64,000 bases of DNA, taken from positions 124,001 to 188,000 of the forward strand of contig NZ_FOKG01000005.1 in the NCBI RefSeq assembly GCF_900111885.1, in the 5' to 3' direction. A program made the position numbers and the translations under genes. Positions 31,816 to 37,772 of this stretch are shown here, one piece after another. The stretch is from Amycolatopsis marina. Its GTDB lineage: Bacteria > Actinomycetota > Actinomycetes > Mycobacteriales > Pseudonocardiaceae. The notes under the pieces were generated by a model, which was not told the DNA's origin, searched no databases, and worked only from the letters and a program-made list of their open reading frames with translations. The first letter of the stretch is position 1. Each line of letters opens with the position of its first letter.

Positions 31816-32240
31816 GTCCTTACTCCCAACGCCAGCCCCGACTCAGCTCTCGTAGCTCACTGCCGCTGGCCTTGCAGCCAGTGTTGGGTACCCGCGGGTT
31901 CCCCCGAACAGACCCGCGCCAAGCGGTCTATCCACTGCGCCGAACGATGGAGAGCTGATCGGTTCACGGGAAACTGCCCGACAGGTCGTTGTGCGCGCGA
32001 ACGGCCGGTCACCGCACCGTGAGCGGGCAGGCCGCGACTTTCGGAGGGGGTCGGGCGGCCCAGCCCCGACACCCGTTGGTCGGATTCGGCCAAGGTTCCC
32101 TGTTCGGCTCCGCGTAGCCGACGGCATACTTTACGTTGTTGTAGTCGTCGCATCCGGTGACGACGGACCTGCTGTCCGGCGGGCGGACAGCAGCCGGGAA
32201 CAGTGACACCATCAGCCGACGGGGGACAGGTGGCGAGACG
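31816..32240. other. Divergent intergenic region SDR / MFS transporter
   Basis: This 425-base gap contains no supported gene; overlapping frames there lack start sites and family features. A promoter for the plus-strand MFS gene is likely near GCATACTTTACGTTGTTG (about 32123-32140). No operator-like repeat was recognised. Confidence 0.4.
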
Positions 32241-33452
32241 GTGACGAGCAAGACCGCGCCCCGGGTGACCGCGCCACTCGGCAACCGTGAGTTCCGAGCG
32301 CTGTGGGCCGCCGAGACGCAGTCTGTGCTGGGAGACCAGCTCACCACGGTCGCACTCGCGATCATGGTCTTCGACCGCACCGGCTCCGCGCTGTGGGCCG
32401 CGCTCGTCTACGCACTGACGTTCCTGCCCGCACTGGCAGGCGGGCTGGGACTCGCACAACTCGCCGACCGCTACCCACGGCGGACGATCCTGTGGGTCAC
32501 CGCCGCGATGCAGGCGGTGCTGGTGGGCCTGATGGCGATACCCGATTCACCGATCGCGCTGCTGTGTGTCCTGATCGTGTTCGCCAGGCTGGCCGGCGCC
32601 CCCTCCAACGCCGCACAGAACGCGCTGACCAGGGAGGTGTTCACGGAAGACGAGATGTATCTGCGCAGCCAGGATCTGCGTGGCATCACCACCAACACGG
32701 CGATGCTCGTCGGCCTCGGCGGCGGCGGGCTGCTCGTTTCCCTGGTCGGGCCGTTCTACGCACTGGCCGCCGACGCACTGACCTTCGCCGTCGCAGCCGT
32801 GCTCATCCGTCGCTACGTGCGCTGGCGTCCAGCCGCTGGCGGCAACGGGGACGCCTGGTTCGGCGCACTGCGGTGGGTCTTCGGCCAGCGCAGGCTCCGC
32901 GTGCTGCTCGCACTGTCCTGGCTGGTCGGTCTCGCGGTGATTCCCGAGGGCCTCGCCGCGCCACTGGCTCACGAGATGGGCGCCCCCAGCCAGGCTGTCG
33001 GCTGGCTGCTGGCCGCGGATCCCCTCGGCTTCGTCGCCGGTGTCTTTCTCCTGTCCCGCTACGCCTCGGCGGAGGACCGCCGCAGGCTCATGGGCATTCT
33101 GGCGGTCTGTTCGGTGGCCGCCCTCATCGGTTTCGCGTTGCAGCCCGCACTTCCGTTCGCGCTCGTCATACTCGCGCTCGCCGGAGCGGCAGGCGCGTAC
33201 ATCATCACCGTGGGAGCCACCTTCATCACCTGGGTCCCGAACGACCTCAGGGGCGGAGCGGGCGGTCTGTACCGCACAGGTCTGCGAGTGGCGCAGGGAG
33301 TCGGCGTCGCGCTCGGTGGTGTGGTCGCACACCTGATCGGCTCGGCGTCCACAGCGGTCGCCTTCGCCGGCGTCACGGGCGTCGTCCTCGCCATACCCGT
33401 CGCACTCGCGTGGACACGGGTACGGACGGCCGACCCGAGCGTGTCGGGCTGA
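32241..33452 (+). CDS. MFS transporter
   Basis: A major facilitator of about 403 residues with roughly 12 hydrophobic spans. Between helices 2 and 3 it has GLAQLADRYPRRTILW, the MFS motif A region, and the N-terminal LGNREFRALWAAETQS is typical of the enterobactin-exporter/DHA3-like group. It probably exports a small molecule or drug by proton antiport. The GTG at 32241 follows AGGTGG; the frame extends to GTG 32157. It converges on the hexapeptide mini-ORF array, so export of its product is possible but unproven. Confidence 0.85.
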   Translation: MTSKTAPRVTAPLGNREFRALWAAETQSVLGDQLTTVALAIMVFDRTGSALWAALVYALTFLPALAGGLGLAQLADRYPRRTILWVTAAMQAVLVGLMAIPDSPIALLCVLIVFARLAGAPSNAAQNALTREVFTEDEMYLRSQDLRGITTNTAMLVGLGGGGLLVSLVGPFYALAADALTFAVAAVLIRRYVRWRPAAGGNGDAWFGALRWVFGQRRLRVLLALSWLVGLAVIPEGLAAPLAHEMGAPSQAVGWLLAADPLGFVAGVFLLSRYASAEDRRRLMGILAVCSVAALIGFALQPALPFALVILALAGAAGAYIITVGATFITWVPNDLRGGAGGLYRTGLRVAQGVGVALGGVVAHLIGSASTAVAFAGVTGVVLAIPVALAWTRVRTADPSVSG

Positions 33453-33466
33453 TGGCGGTGAACTCG

Positions 33467-33492
33467 GTGACCGAAACTCCGGCACCGGTCAC
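33467..33492. terminator. Possible hairpin between the MFS gene and the mini-ORF array
   Basis: GTGACCG (33467-33473) and CGGTCAC (33486-33492) can pair around a 12-base loop. It sits 15 bases after the MFS stop and 30 bases beyond the last mini-ORF of the opposite strand, so it could terminate both. The stem is short. Confidence 0.35.
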
Positions 33493-33521
33493 AACAACCT
33501 TCCGAGCTTGCCTGCCTGAGG

Positions 33522-33542
33522 TCACCAGTCACGGCTCGACAT
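33522..33542 (-). CDS. Hexapeptide mini-ORF copy 1 (MSSRDW), last in transcription order
   Basis: ATG at 33542 reads Met-Ser-Ser-Arg-Asp-Trp-stop. An AGGAGGAGGG ribosome-binding site covers 33549-33558, leaving six bases to the start. In-frame sequence upstream (FDSGGGRT) is unlike that of the other copies, so the conserved product begins at the Met. It is followed by a possible hairpin at 33467-33492. Function unknown; a secreted or modified peptide, or a ribosome-acting minigene, are options. Confidence 0.7.
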   Translation of the reverse strand: MSSRDW

Positions 33543-33591
33543 GGTCCGCCCTCCTCCTGAATCGAAATCCAATGTGTGCTGTCGTTCCGGT

Positions 33592-33612
33592 TCACCAGTC
33601 GCGACTCGACAT
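33592..33612 (-). CDS. Hexapeptide mini-ORF copy 2 (MSSRDW, synonymous variant)
   Basis: ATG at 33612 reads ATG-TCG-AGT-CGC-GAC-TGG-TGA. It differs from the other copies at two third-codon positions (AGT for AGC, CGC for CGT), leaving MSSRDW unchanged, which points to selection on the peptide. GGAAGGAGA at 33619-33627 is the ribosome-binding site, six bases from the start. The intercistronic distance to copy 1 is 49 bases. Confidence 0.72.
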   Translation of the reverse strand: MSSRDW

Positions 33613-33664
33613 GTCACGTCTCCTTCCGTTGCGCGAAAAACAGAACTTCACCGCTGTTTCAAGA

Positions 33665-33685
33665 TCACCAGTCACGGCTCGACAT
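33665..33685 (-). CDS. Hexapeptide mini-ORF copy 3 (MSSRDW)
   Basis: ATG at 33685 encodes MSSRDW with the same codons as copy 1. AGGAGGAGG at 33692-33700 is the ribosome-binding site, again six bases from the start. A T-rich GTTTTCG precedes it. The frame above (RVRRRQA) is unrelated to the frames above other copies. Confidence 0.7.
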   Translation of the reverse strand: MSSRDW

Positions 33686-33731
33686 CGCTTGCCTCCTCCT
33701 CACTCGAAAACGAACCAGGTCCACACAGGAG

Positions 33732-33752
33732 TCACCAGTCACGGCTCGACAC
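33732..33752 (-). CDS. Hexapeptide mini-ORF copy 4 (GTG start, SSRDW)
   Basis: GTG at 33752 encodes fMet-Ser-Ser-Arg-Asp-Trp. GGAAGGAGGG covers 33759-33768 with a six-base spacer. An in-frame stop lies about 12 codons upstream, so a long precursor is excluded for this copy unless a TTG or GTG a few codons upstream is used. Confidence 0.68.
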   Translation of the reverse strand: MSSRDW

Positions 33753-33808
33753 GATCGACCCTCCTTCCACCGCAAGCAAAACTCAACAGAATCAGATCCT
33801 TCCGAAGA

Positions 33809-33829
33809 TCACCAGTCACGGCTCGACAC
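33809..33829 (-). CDS. Hexapeptide mini-ORF copy 5 (GTG start, SSRDW), first in transcription order
   Basis: GTG at 33829 encodes fMet-Ser-Ser-Arg-Asp-Trp. GGAGGTG at 33836-33842 is the ribosome-binding site, about six bases away. The frame is open further up to 34057, but that stretch runs antisense through the start of the diguanylate cyclase gene and is not shared by other copies. A candidate minus-strand -10 box TATCAT lies at 33923-33928, about 95 bases before the start, and a palindrome AGCCGAGGCTCGGCT at 33884-33898 lies between. Confidence 0.66.
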   Translation of the reverse strand: MSSRDW

Positions 33830-34012
33830 GAGGAACACCTCCGATCGGCACTCGCGCATACGCACGAACGATACGGACAGTACAGCCGAGGCTCGGCTAC
33901 ACGACACATCTGGTGGAGTGAGATGATACCGGGCGAAGAAAACGAATGGCACTTCAGCGGGTAGCGGAGAGATTACCGATCCCGACAAGACACCGGTCAG
34001 GGAGGTGAAGAC

Positions 34013-35428
34013 ATGCCACCCCCACCTCCGGACCAGTCGCGGACTCCGCCCCAGCACGCCGATCTCCGGTCCGCGCCGCCGGACGGCAACGGCGTGGCAC
34101 CGCTACGGCCAGCCAAGAACGACGAGAGACCCGTGCAACAAGCAGCGACACAGAGTCACCATCCTTTCCATCCACGGGAGTGGGCACTGTGGCAACGACC
34201 GAAGCGCGTCGTCGTTGCGCTACTCGCCATGGAATTGCTTGCCGTTGCGGTCTTCGCCGTGGCGATCGCACACTCGGAAGTACCGTCCGTGGGCGACTGG
34301 ATACGATTCGCGATCCTCGCCGCGGGCGCTACGGTCCACATCCAATTGACCCAGCGACAAGAAGAGCGACGGCGAAATCGGACCAGAACCGTATTGATCG
34401 ATCTCACGGCGGTCTGGACGTTCCCCGCCGCGGTCATTTTTCCGGTTCCGCTCACCCTTCTACTCGTCGCATTGATTCGACTTCAACATTGGTTCATCGC
34501 CCGGCGTCCGGCGCACAACTTCGTCTTTTCCTCGATCGCCCACGGCCTGTCCGGAACATTGGCTCAGCTGACGTTCGTCTCACTGGCCCCATACAATTGG
34601 GGATCACTCGGCGGACTGGATTCCCTACATGACTTCGGCGGCCTGGTTCTCGCCGGTCTCGTCTTCGAAGCGGTACAGATCCTCTACGTGGGTTCAATTC
34701 TCGCGTTGAGTTCCTCATCGAGGCCCACGGTGGGCAAGGTGCTGGGCAACAAGGCCGACAACCTGCTCGAGGCGATCACGATCGGACTCGGGGCGGTCAC
34801 GGCGGTCCTGCTGGTCATCATGCCCCCGGCCGTGGCGATCATGGCGGTGGTGACGGTGGTGTTCAACCGGCTCGCCGAACTCGACCAGTTGCAGGACGAC
34901 GTCCGAACCGACTCCAAGACCGGCGCGCTCAACATGCGCGGCTGGAACGAACTCGCCGAACGGGGACTCGAACGCGCCCGCAAGTCCGAGGACGATATCG
35001 CCCTTCTGATGATCGACCTCGACCACTTCAAGTGGATCAATGACTCGTTCGGACACCCAGCCGGCGACGATGTGCTACAGGCCGTCGCCGAAGCGCTTCG
35101 AGAGGTTACCCGACCGAGTGACGTGGTCGGTCGCTTCGGGGGCGAAGAATTCCTCATCCTCCTTCCCGACATGGACGAACGTGCCGCCCTGCAGGCGGCG
35201 GAGCGCGTGCGGCGGGCAATCGCCGATCTGCGTATCGTGACGACCGACAAGCGTGGTAGTCAGACAACCATCAACCGGCGCACGACATCTGTTGGCGTGG
35301 CAATTTTTCCGCAGCACGCCGACAGCCTCGAAGGGCTCATGCACGCCGCGGACGCGGCCGTTTACGAGGCCAAGGAAGCGGGCCGGAACCAGGTCCGGAT
35401 AGCAACCCGAAACAGTCACGCCCCGTAG
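34013..35428 (+). CDS. Membrane-bound diguanylate cyclase (GGDEF)
   Basis: A 471-residue protein. About 60 hydrophilic residues lead into six or so membrane segments (residues about 62-290), then a GGDEF domain. The active-site loop RFGGEEF lies near residue 375, preceded by an RPSD inhibitory-site motif (RxxD) and LLMIDLDHFKWINDSFGH. It should make cyclic di-GMP from two GTP with product feedback inhibition. GGGAGGTGAAGAC precedes the ATG. No EAL domain is present. Its promoter region is shared with the divergent hexapeptide array. Confidence 0.92.
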   Translation: MPPPPPDQSRTPPQHADLRSAPPDGNGVAPLRPAKNDERPVQQAATQSHHPFHPREWALWQRPKRVVVALLAMELLAVAVFAVAIAHSEVPSVGDWIRFAILAAGATVHIQLTQRQEERRRNRTRTVLIDLTAVWTFPAAVIFPVPLTLLLVALIRLQHWFIARRPAHNFVFSSIAHGLSGTLAQLTFVSLAPYNWGSLGGLDSLHDFGGLVLAGLVFEAVQILYVGSILALSSSSRPTVGKVLGNKADNLLEAITIGLGAVTAVLLVIMPPAVAIMAVVTVVFNRLAELDQLQDDVRTDSKTGALNMRGWNELAERGLERARKSEDDIALLMIDLDHFKWINDSFGHPAGDDVLQAVAEALREVTRPSDVVGRFGGEEFLILLPDMDERAALQAAERVRRAIADLRIVTTDKRGSQTTINRRTTSVGVAIFPQHADSLEGLMHAADAAVYEAKEAGRNQVRIATRNSHAP

Positions 35429-35591
35429 TGAGAGCCGATCGACCCAATCGCTGCTGTCCCTCGATTTCCCACTCGTCTGGTCACCCTCTGCGAACAACTG
35501 GGTGCTCTCGGCGACCCGAGGCCGTCGATACCACCGAACTAGGGGGTTACCCGGATGCATATGCTCCAGGTCTCCTGGGACCCTGTTGCCT

Positions 35592-37772
35592 GTGATCGTT
35601 CCGACCCAGCCGGCGCCCACACGCGTACGCCGTCCGTTGTGGACCTCGGCGTGGGTTCTCGTGCTGGTCCTCGTGGTCGTCGGTTTCGGGTTCGTCGCGT
35701 CGCGGTCCGACCCGCCCGCACCGACCGGCCCGCTGCGGCCCGAGGTCGCCCAGGCGGAGCAGGCGATCGGCACGCTGCTCTCCCCCGGCACCGCCAGCAC
35801 GACGATCGAACTGCTCCCGGCCGACTTCACCGAGGTCACCGGTGTCGTCCCGGCAGAACTGACCGCGCCGGACAACACCATTCGCGCCGTGCACGCCGAC
35901 GGCGGTTGTTCCACGCCGTGGGGCGACGACGGCACCAGGTGGGACTACACCGCCTCCTGCAAGGCGCACGACCTCGGTTACGACCTGCTTCGTTACTCCG
36001 CGGCAAAGGGCCAGCCACTCGGACCAGAGGTCCGGAAGGCACTGGACGACCGGCTCTCGGCGGACATGCATGCCATGTGCGGGATCAATCCGCAGAACTC
36101 CCCCGGCACCTGCCGTGCGGTCGCCTCGCTGTTCTCGGCAGGCCTCGTCATCAACTCCTGGCATCAGCGCTGGGGCCCGCCGGTCGGCGAACCCGTGGCG
36201 CCGATGCTCGCGGGCGTCGCGATGATCGGATTCCTGCTGACGTTCCGGTTGCGCGGCTGGCTGCATGCCCGCCGGATCGCCCCCCGACAACGGCAGAGCG
36301 TCCCCGCCGTCGTCCGGCACAGAGCCGCGGGGAGCTGGGCGCCACTCGCCGTGGCCGCCGTCGCGCTGCTGGTACTCGGCGAGTCGGCGGTGGCCCTGGG
36401 CCGGTGGGCCGGAGTGGGCGACGGCTGGCTCTGGCCGCTGACCTGGCTCACCCAGCTGGCGTTCCTCTTCTTCTTCGCAGGTGGGCGTGCCAACGCCGCC
36501 GGATGGCGGGAGATCGTCGGGGCCGGCGGTGGCTACCGCGAGTACCTCGCCCATCGGGCAGGCTGGCTGCTGCGGCCGGCGCTGGTCTTCGCGGTCGTGG
36601 CCTTCGCGGTGCCCATGGCTCTCGAACTGCTCGGCATCCCGCCGAACACGACGGGCACGGTGATGCGCATAGCGCTCCATCCACTGTGGTTGCTCGGCGT
36701 CTATCTGCTGACCGTGGTCGTCACGCCGATCATGCTGACGCTGCATCGCCGCGCGCCGCTGGCCGTCCTCGCGCTCATCGCCGGAGGCGTTCTGGGGCTG
36801 GCCACCACCGCGAGCGGGGCGGGGCCCGAACTGCTCCAGTACGCGGGGGTGATCGGGCTCGCACTCCTGGCCCAGCAACTCGGCTTCGCCCACGCCGACG
36901 GTCTCCTGTCCCGGCGCCTGTTGGGCTGGACCGGTGCTGCCGCGATCGGCACCCTCGTCGCGTTGGCAGGCAGTGGCGCGCTGCCGCTCCTGCTGCTCGG
37001 CACCCCTGGGGCGGTGCCGCCCCTGGCTGGTCCCACGCTCGCCGTACTGCTGCTCGGCCTCGCGCACCTCGGGCTGCTGCTCGCGCTGCCACAGCCTGCC
37101 CGTGCGCTGGGTGCTCGTGCCGCGGTCGTCAGGGTGACCGACTTCGCCCTGCGTGCTCCGATGAGCCTCTACCTCTGCTTTCTGACCGCCATGCTGCTGC
37201 TGATCACCGTCGTCTACCTACCGGAGCAACTGGGCCGCGGCCTCGGCTGGGTGCTGCACCCTCGGTCCGTCATCGCGCTGGCGATGCTCGCCGGACCCGG
37301 TGTTGTCGTGTTCTGGTGGTTCGAACGGCACACGCAGCCGCACCGCACCCCCCGACTCGTGCCCGGCCCCGTCAACCGGCTGGAGATCCTGCTCGCCAGG
37401 GCAGCCGCCTGGTTGGGGTTCGGCTACGCGGTCATCGGCATCTTCGGCTTCGCGCTCTCCGGTTTCAGCGGCTCCGGGAACGCGACTCTGCTCGGCCTTG
37501 AGCTCGATCCCATCCAGAGCGTGCTGCACCTGCTGCTCGGCGTCTCCCTGCTGCACACCGTCCGGACCGGCGCCAGCGGCACTCCGACGACCTGGGTGCT
37601 CAGCACGCTCGCCTGCGTGCCGCCTCTGCTGGCCGCCACCTCAGGCCCGGACACCGACACGCTCGCGCTCCTCGTGCACGGCGTGACCGGGCTCTTCGCC
37701 ACCGCCGCGGTCGTGGCCACAGTGGCGACCAGTTGGCGGCCGAGTCGCACACCCGTGCGAAGCGGAGGCTGA
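35592..37772 (+). CDS. Membrane protein: phospholipase A2-like domain fused to acyltransferase-3-like domain
   Basis: A protein of about 726 residues. After an N-terminal span (LVLVLVVVGFGFVAS) comes an outer domain with GGCSTPWGDDG and SCKAHDLGYDLL, whose Cys and His-Asp pattern matches prokaryotic secreted phospholipase A2. About ten further hydrophobic segments follow; FFFAGGRANAAGW and a HPLWLLGVYLL segment resemble acyltransferase-3 membrane proteins. It may act on membrane or cell-wall lipids (inference). The start is uncertain: GTG 35592 lacks a clear ribosome-binding site and the frame extends to 35502. The combination is unusual. Confidence 0.72.
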   Translation: MIVPTQPAPTRVRRPLWTSAWVLVLVLVVVGFGFVASRSDPPAPTGPLRPEVAQAEQAIGTLLSPGTASTTIELLPADFTEVTGVVPAELTAPDNTIRAVHADGGCSTPWGDDGTRWDYTASCKAHDLGYDLLRYSAAKGQPLGPEVRKALDDRLSADMHAMCGINPQNSPGTCRAVASLFSAGLVINSWHQRWGPPVGEPVAPMLAGVAMIGFLLTFRLRGWLHARRIAPRQRQSVPAVVRHRAAGSWAPLAVAAVALLVLGESAVALGRWAGVGDGWLWPLTWLTQLAFLFFFAGGRANAAGWREIVGAGGGYREYLAHRAGWLLRPALVFAVVAFAVPMALELLGIPPNTTGTVMRIALHPLWLLGVYLLTVVVTPIMLTLHRRAPLAVLALIAGGVLGLATTASGAGPELLQYAGVIGLALLAQQLGFAHADGLLSRRLLGWTGAAAIGTLVALAGSGALPLLLLGTPGAVPPLAGPTLAVLLLGLAHLGLLLALPQPARALGARAAVVRVTDFALRAPMSLYLCFLTAMLLLITVVYLPEQLGRGLGWVLHPRSVIALAMLAGPGVVVFWWFERHTQPHRTPRLVPGPVNRLEILLARAAAWLGFGYAVIGIFGFALSGFSGSGNATLLGLELDPIQSVLHLLLGVSLLHTVRTGASGTPTTWVLSTLACVPPLLAATSGPDTDTLALLVHGVTGLFATAAVVATVATSWRPSRTPVRSGG

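Follow-up and report, generated by a model that had tools for sequence, protein, structure and literature searches.

Organization of the mini-ORF array and its flanking genes

The window analyzed here, a stretch of 64 kb from Amycolatopsis marina, harbors five ORFs of six codons each, all of which end in GAC-TGG-TGA and lie on the minus strand between positions 33522 and 33829. The array is flanked on one side by an MFS transporter gene, the 3′ end of which is turned toward it, and on the other by a gene encoding a membrane GGDEF protein, from which it is divergent, both of these genes being located on the plus strand. Because it is convergent with the former and divergent from the latter, the array appears, on the basis of gene order, to constitute a transcription unit of its own. 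The features of the locus are as follows, the Shine-Dalgarno sites being read from the sequence.

32157..33452 (+): MFS transporter (MFS_3/EntS-like), convergent with the array; proposed peptide exporter
33522..33542 (-): mini-ORF 5, ATG start, MSSRDW-stop
33550..33554 (-): Shine-Dalgarno sequence GGAGG of mini-ORF 5
33592..33612 (-): mini-ORF 4, ATG start, MSSRDW-stop
33620..33624 (-): Shine-Dalgarno sequence AGGAG of mini-ORF 4
33665..33685 (-): mini-ORF 3, ATG start, MSSRDW-stop
33692..33696 (-): Shine-Dalgarno sequence GGAGG of mini-ORF 3
33732..33752 (-): mini-ORF 2, GTG start, VSSRDW-stop
33760..33764 (-): Shine-Dalgarno sequence GGAGG of mini-ORF 2
33809..33829 (-): mini-ORF 1 (first transcribed), GTG start, VSSRDW-stop
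33838..33842 (-): Shine-Dalgarno sequence GGAGG of mini-ORF 1
33923..33952 (-): promoter-like site (GTGCCA, 18 bases, TATCAT), a consensus match only, approximately 100 bases before mini-ORF 1
34013..35428 (+): membrane GGDEF protein with GGEEF motif and RxxD I-site, divergent from the array; proposed receptor and output
34181..34909 (+): N-terminal membrane domain of the GGDEF protein, S-component-like in prediction; proposed peptide sensor
34907..35392 (+): GGDEF domain (PF00990) of the same protein, profile match

The original prediction had placed five (M/V)SSRDW mini-ORFs on this strand in units of 67 to 77 bases, and all five were recovered, with starts at 33829, 33752, 33685, 33612, and 33542 and a copy spacing of 70, 73, 67, and 77 bases. 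The predicted Shine-Dalgarno sequence (GGAGG or AGGAG) precedes each copy, but the spacer, described as a constant six bases, proved variable, with the start codon located 6 to 8 bases off. A TA(T/C)CAT element with similar surroundings was present 70 to 175 bases upstream of the first unit in all 16 genus loci printed.

Gene finders usually apply minimum lengths that ORFs as short as these do not reach. A degenerate 21-base pattern produced five perfect matches in the 7.02-Mb genome, all corresponding to the window array, and in the rest of the genome a single place with one mismatch and eight with two. The array was also the sole match in the 64-kb window of a residue-blind scan for repeated ORFs of 4 to 8 codons preceded by a Shine-Dalgarno sequence, while the same scan returned no match in 20 versions of the window generated by a first-order Markov model; the array is not a product of chance. 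Tandem Repeats Finder returned nothing for the array, because its spacers are too diverged.

Distribution of the arrays and selection on the encoded peptide

The stretch located behind the MFS gene was retrieved from all 80 genomes of the genus, that of the window included. A GGDEF gene was present in this stretch in 76 of the 80, each of which carried one to five units as defined by an R-(D/E) motif. Neither a GGDEF gene nor units were found beside the MFS gene in L051 (genome G072) and L108 (G058); the stretch of L034 is filled by its array (nine units by the R-(D/E) count), its GGDEF gene appearing in L124, and that of L109, likewise outside the 76, stops at a contig end. The peptide varies from clade to clade within the genus, the forms observed including SSRDW, SNRDF, SARDF, RDREA, SDREA, AGRDY, SNRDL, SNRDG, and SNRDC, among others. 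In Amycolatopsis palatopharyngis all five units are retained with unchanged SSRDW codons, the second unit starting with ATG as opposed to GTG in the window, and the spacers have acquired substitutions and indels.

The original prediction had suggested a search of related genomes for repeated units. Such a search, using a pattern blind to neighboring genes (Shine-Dalgarno sequence, NTG, two codons, CGN, GAN, one codon, and TGA, occurring twice at a distance of 40 to 70 bases), yielded matches in 119 of 390 genomes of the family, representing 15 of 46 genera, while the reversed pattern, applied as a control, matched none of the 390. Across the order, 29 of 397 genomes were matched, only one of them outside the family (G420, with the peptide RNRDT). 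For 86 loci, 77 of them taken from pattern matches, with some overlap, and nine from stretches retrieved in the vicinity of such matches, a homolog of the window's GGDEF protein was found to adjoin the array in 83; two of the other three begin at contig ends (L154 and L181), and the third, L117, represents the same array as L169, which possesses the homolog. The pairing extends to arrays whose peptides contain RES, REY, RDN, REH, RDS, or RDT, with 31 to 39% local identity to the window's GGDEF protein, and array and GGDEF gene are located on opposite strands in 43 of 43 loci (some overlapping). When both strands of 454,020 bases, made up of the window together with 20 array loci, were subjected to the residue-blind scan, it returned GGDEF-adjacent arrays and nothing elsewhere; L332 accounted for four entries, one of which is an unlike pair (CDKGI and RINGI) next to the array, the L334 array was split into two pieces, and L343 was not matched, its repeats being contained in longer ORFs.

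A distinct arrangement was observed in genus g4 (L111, L112, L113, L115, L116, L169, L170, and L171), where the GGDEF ORF extends upstream, antisense through the peptide array. The gaps between units (below 130 bases) in these eight loci are multiples of three in 85 of 85 cases, compared to 24 of 88 in 13 other arrays, and coding on both strands is suggested for the g4 arrays, with the cyclase apparently lengthened at its N terminus across the peptide genes.

To assess constraint on the units, arrays were collected by a rule requiring a Shine-Dalgarno sequence, a start codon, 4 to 8 codons, a stop codon, and at least 60% identity inside the array, with no residue specified. This set replaced a motif-based tally, which had demanded CGN, GAN, and TGA and whose counts for those codons were thus circular. 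It comprises 77 arrays of three or more units (381 units in total), in which ATG, GTG, and TTG serve as start codons 206, 157, and 18 times and TGA, TAA, and TAG as stop codons 372, 6, and 3 times, respectively. Among codon pairs differing by one base within these arrays, 1,062 of 1,169 (0.908) are synonymous, compared to the 0.298 expected from the codons involved, a count which includes related, nonindependent arrays and is no probability, but whose direction is plain. Pairwise differences across the last three codons amount to 0 to 2% at first and second positions and 13 to 23% at third positions, spacers away from the Shine-Dalgarno sequence differ in about 47 to 71% of pairs, and the C-terminal three residues represent the most constrained part of the peptide. 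Since 91% of single-base codon differences are synonymous as opposed to the 30% expected, selection on the peptide itself is strongly supported at the sequence level; this synonymous bias, together with the conserved units in the genus loci, bears out the earlier view that the peptide is the conserved unit.

Further observations pertain to the form of the product. At codon 2, serine codons are exchanged among units (TCG, AGC, and TCC). Four loci harbor a single ORF with a repeated core, namely MRDNNWRDNNWR (L290), MRGQNWTLRGQNW (L257), MRDNNWTTRRDNNWT (L277), and VRDAHWRDAHWR (L287), the last of which showed no good Shine-Dalgarno sequence when one was looked for. Such a polyprotein-like form argues for a peptide-level product, which may be processed. 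In the VRNRES arrays L172, L173, L174, and L177, the last unit differs from the rest in being preceded by a sequence of its own, GGGAACGTC or GGAATCGTC ahead of ACC-ATG.

These data bear on two rival explanations. The first, a functionless tandem duplication arisen by chance, draws on the near-identical spacers of some arrays (e.g., in G823 and G832), from which it is apparent that arrays grow by duplication. It is nevertheless regarded as practically negligible, as the units are conserved across genera and families despite diverged spacers, none occurred in shuffled windows, the neighboring gene is constant, and the synonymous bias constitutes a strong argument against it. The second is an element acting at the RNA or translation level, which might sequester ribosomes or tRNAs, serve as an antisense or regulatory RNA whose Shine-Dalgarno sites are repeated, or represent a leader in reiterated form. 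Strong Shine-Dalgarno sites are indeed repeated, and the array strand is opposite to both flanking genes; yet such devices are disfavored by the synonymous bias (0.91 versus 0.30) and by a last residue that differs between arrays, and the serine codon exchanges at codon 2 and the repetition of cores within one ORF likewise speak against them. Moreover, the RNA of the array region is predicted to fold more weakly than shuffled sequences (z of +3.2), and a search of Rfam with positions 32000 to 36000 returned a single, chance-level miRNA match under threshold. We therefore consider an RNA-level role very unlikely. The trapping of tRNA-Trp, an option raised in the original prediction, is excluded as a general function because the terminal residue may be W, F, Y, L, A, G, C, N, S, H, T, or M. 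A leader peptide, also raised there, does not agree with the layout either: downstream on the array strand, ORFs of at least 80 amino acids are only those largely antisense to the MFS gene, and the array, rather than being upstream of and codirectional with a gene as an attenuator or leader is, is convergent with the MFS gene and divergent from the GGDEF gene.

The GGDEF and MFS partners

The GGDEF partner, the paralogous peptide sets, and their distribution extend beyond the original prediction. The window's GGDEF protein, a predicted diguanylate cyclase, matches PF00990 with an E value of 2.5e-44, harbors the motif GGEEF, and in Pfam presented no sensor domain besides GGDEF. A motif search of 49 proteins of the partner family identified GGEEF or GGDEF in all 49 and RxxD in 47, none being found in L211 and L212; the array-linked partner in L152 possesses GGEEI instead of GGEEF. 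Adjoining the GGDEF gene, positions 35502 to 37772 of the plus strand encode a 756-residue protein with a marginal match to a phospholipase A2 domain (residues 131 to 212).

A model of the full GGDEF protein (pLDDT 88.3) contains a standard GGDEF domain (best Z score, 26.4), and as the fold search with this model was filled by GGDEF domains, the N-terminal membrane domain was modeled alone with AlphaFold2 (pLDDT 84.5; pTM 0.82). Its 11 best rows in VIA-align are ECF S components with Z scores of 12.1 to 8.0, values to be read against the approximately 13 to 14 that helical models can reach by chance. RibU (PDB 5kbw) ranks first (Z score of 12.1 over 155 residues at 3.1 Å), followed by ThiT, FolT, and others down to 8.0, and the next kind of fold scores 6.2. 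Foldseek produced a best E value of 0.069 for the sensor domain alone, a sequence search of the PDB with this domain returned no match, and the membrane domains alone matched Pfam weakly, MASE9 being the best (E value of 0.0055, in 3 of 16 members). The predicted fold thus aligns with S components such as RibU, ThiT, and FolT over 151 to 169 residues, a resemblance which is suggestive at the level of models; here, in contrast to S components, the domain is joined to GGDEF and has no sequence match in the PDB. The protein also resembles MASE-type membrane-sensor diguanylate cyclases in that a multihelix membrane domain is joined by a helix to the GGDEF domain, but it differs from these in having GGDEF alone in Pfam.

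Paralogs were surveyed in 45 genomes, 44 spread over the family and one outside it, with an alignment of the N-terminal membrane domain as the query, and 1 to 10 per genome were detected in 41 of the 45. Upstream peptide ORFs were found for 23 of the 30 paralogs with loci of their own, including the new kinds SDRAW (four times) and RDKIW (three times), and none was found at the other 7. Eighty further upstream stretches comprised ten weak homologs (E values above 1e-21) as a control, in which no peptide ORFs were found, and 70 remoter paralogs. Rule-based repeated sets were present in 10 of these 70 (RNHNW, SKDL, RDNNWT, SDKGW, RDRGN, and others); assignment by eye, which admitted single ORFs and within-ORF repeats, some with weak Shine-Dalgarno sequences, raised the number to 34, with none seen for 36. 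A repeated set on the strand of the GGDEF gene was encountered in 0 of the 80 stretches. The paralog peptide sets include RNRES, SNRDN, RTREH, RDNTWT, and RNHNW, with up to 23 copies, and paralogs within one genome may be associated with differing peptides, as in G028 (SNRDF, RNRES, CGRDN, and SDKGW). The second paralog of the window's own genome (contig C10, positions 190776 to 191510) has an adjoining MFS gene and a GGDEF rather than a GGEEF motif, and no convincing peptide ORF was found for it. In L331 (G268, contig C29), two tandem sensor-GGDEF paralogs are located behind one 13-unit MRNHNW array.

Peptide distance was compared with the distance between partner proteins in a Mantel test on 59 of 63 pairs, four having been dropped for want of a GGDEF sequence and the peptides being hand-assigned. 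The Spearman correlation was 0.476 with the sensor domain (reached by 0 of 1,000 permutations) and 0.491 with the GGDEF domain (partial correlations, 0.232 and 0.268, respectively); peptide distance tracks both domains about equally, and the test therefore does not show which of them reads the peptide.

The same association was encountered beyond the family. A scan of 158 genomes of the class with the sensor domain (E value of 1e-25; best 17 candidates per genome) retrieved 13, namely, the window's own, ten of family f34, one of f21, and one of f24. Peptide ORFs accompany 18 of 18 of the loci outside the window genome, two of them as single ORFs, and encode RDNTWT, RDTTWS, RGNSWD, RANSWD, RDNNWN, RDNHWTP, RDNKWSR, SSTQWG, and RSVQWA. 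An M-R-x-x-x-W-x pattern derived from these arrays and blind to neighboring genes matched 16 of 22 f34 genomes, as opposed to 0 of 22 for the reversed pattern, and in the f34 loci fetched (19 distinct arrays of 22 listed), GGDEF and MFS genes are both opposite to the array in 30 of 30. A phylum-wide scan with the sensor-domain profile, covering the best 11 candidates of each of 246 genomes, recovered the window's own genome alone at an E value of 1e-14 and says little.

The window's MFS protein matches MFS_3 (PF05977) with 52.3 bits, above the cutoff of 27. Assignment to the enterobactin exporter EntS is not supported, since the match to the EntS equivalog NF007792 (59.8 bits) falls under the cutoff of 324. 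Clustering of the proteins predicted for the window region and for 20 further array loci placed the GGDEF protein in 18 loci, the count being that obtained by ORF picking, and the MFS protein in 17 of 21, the next cluster being present in four. An MFS gene was found for 49 of 67 peptide-bearing upstream stretches, always opposite to the array, and was not found at the other 18; the corresponding numbers are 15 of 44 for stretches without a seen peptide (the second paralog of the window genome being counted twice) and 0 of 10 for weak homologs. Because it is present at 49 of 67 peptide-bearing loci and persists at L051 and L108, where array and GGDEF gene are absent, the MFS gene is a frequent but not an obligate partner.

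A candidate peptide-to-c-di-GMP signaling system

We propose that the arrays specify directly encoded peptide autoinducers which are probably exported by the MFS transporter and sensed by the cognate membrane cyclase, a reading that we hold to be moderately probable. One short transcript carrying several mini-ORFs, each with its own Shine-Dalgarno sequence, would give rise to many copies of a ready-made peptide (M/V-SSRDW), and the neighboring MFS transporter would probably export it. The peptide would then act as the private ligand of the divergently encoded membrane GGDEF protein, its binding at the membrane domain switching c-di-GMP synthesis. As many GGDEF paralogs have a peptide of their own, several parallel peptide-to-c-di-GMP channels might operate per genome. 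What the sequences show is the mini-ORFs, the selection acting on their peptide, their pairing with the GGDEF gene, and a frequent association with the MFS gene; transcription, translation, export, binding, and the effect on the cyclase are inferred. Of the options offered by the original prediction, a secreted signal provides the best fit, secretion itself being a step that we infer.

The main rival to the autoinducer reading is cytoplasmic action, whereby the peptides, produced in numerous copies, would remain intracellular and bind the cognate GGDEF protein directly as regulators, reading out translation or transcription of the array. The mini-ORF peptides contain no secretion signal, 18 of 67 peptide-bearing loci showed no MFS gene nearby, and the peptide and GGDEF genes are divergently paired, all of which would suit an intracellular role; its standing is reduced by the MFS gene found on the GGDEF strand beside 49 of 67 loci and 30 of 30 f34 loci, and by the S-component-like prediction, which suggests a ligand site in the membrane. 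On balance, cytoplasmic action is considered unlikely.

Known systems with comparably small peptide genes include the biarylitide-type minimal RiPP genes, to which the original prediction had likened the array, and mccA of microcin C. The former consist of a single gene with an adjacent P450, and their precursor genes are alike in having five to six codons. Microcin C depends on a single-copy mccA encoding a heptapeptide with C-terminal Asn/Asp and requires the modifying enzyme MccB, an adjacent adenylating enzyme; mccA is alike in specifying a leaderless peptide of mature size (7 residues) near an MFS-type exporter. Under an analogous scheme, small antibiotics or modified peptides would be made from the array products and leave the cell through the MFS protein, with the GGDEF protein as a linked regulator; the very small size and direct encoding of the peptides, next to an MFS_3/EntS-like transporter, are compatible with this. 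Against it, the constant neighbor is a GGDEF protein and not a modifying enzyme, the C-terminal residue varies widely, and no third gene family occurs in more than 4 of 21 neighborhoods, such that neither the P450 or tailoring enzyme of the biarylitide type nor an MccB-like enzyme has a recurring counterpart. The biarylitide analogy is accordingly not upheld, GGDEF and MFS being the only families to recur in more than 4 of the 21; with respect to microcin C, the arrays differ further in being tandem and in their GGDEF partner, and the window peptide ends in Trp. An antibiotic-precursor role is thus deemed improbable, more so than cytoplasmic action.

The autoinducer reading finds a parallel in the RRNPP pheromone systems of Gram-positive bacteria (Rgg, PlcR, PrgX, and arbitrium), whose peptides are released by cleavage of longer precursors that are secreted and act on TPR receptors in the cytoplasm. 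Both share a short linear peptide whose gene adjoins that of a cognate receptor, in paralogous private pairs that differ from one another, the receptor role being in our case putative. Here, in contrast, the peptide is the whole six-codon ORF, and the neighbor is a predicted membrane diguanylate cyclase. Among actinobacterial c-di-GMP enzymes, the turnover enzymes CdgA to CdgF, RmdA, and RmdB of Streptomyces are comparable, and their signals are called unknown in PMC6205966; the Streptomyces venezuelae table considered from that paper lists no protein composed of a membrane domain and GGDEF only, and the passages considered mention no peptide genes.

In keyword searches of an open-access library, none of the papers listed described tandem peptide mini-ORFs beside GGDEF genes. 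None of the families tested accommodates an arrangement in which tandem, directly encoded peptide genes are partnered with a diguanylate cyclase. The layout of array, GGDEF gene, and MFS gene, which recurs with other peptides in other actinobacteria, probably represents an undescribed peptide signaling system. Whether it amounts to a new class of cell-cell signaling, defined by tandemly encoded mature peptides of 5 to 7 residues, MFS export, S-component-like cyclase receptors, and private c-di-GMP channels, is in our estimation an even matter.

We know of no other peptide autoinducer whose ready-made copies are each specified by a minigene in a tandem row, and the present one would be the first if the autoinducer reading is true. 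Peptides of six to seven residues are cheap to synthesize, and the idea is therefore directly testable. In streptomycetes, morphogenesis and secondary metabolism are reported to be under the control of c-di-GMP (PMC7911125); if the proposed reading holds, the array-encoded peptides would represent a ligand class for membrane diguanylate cyclases.
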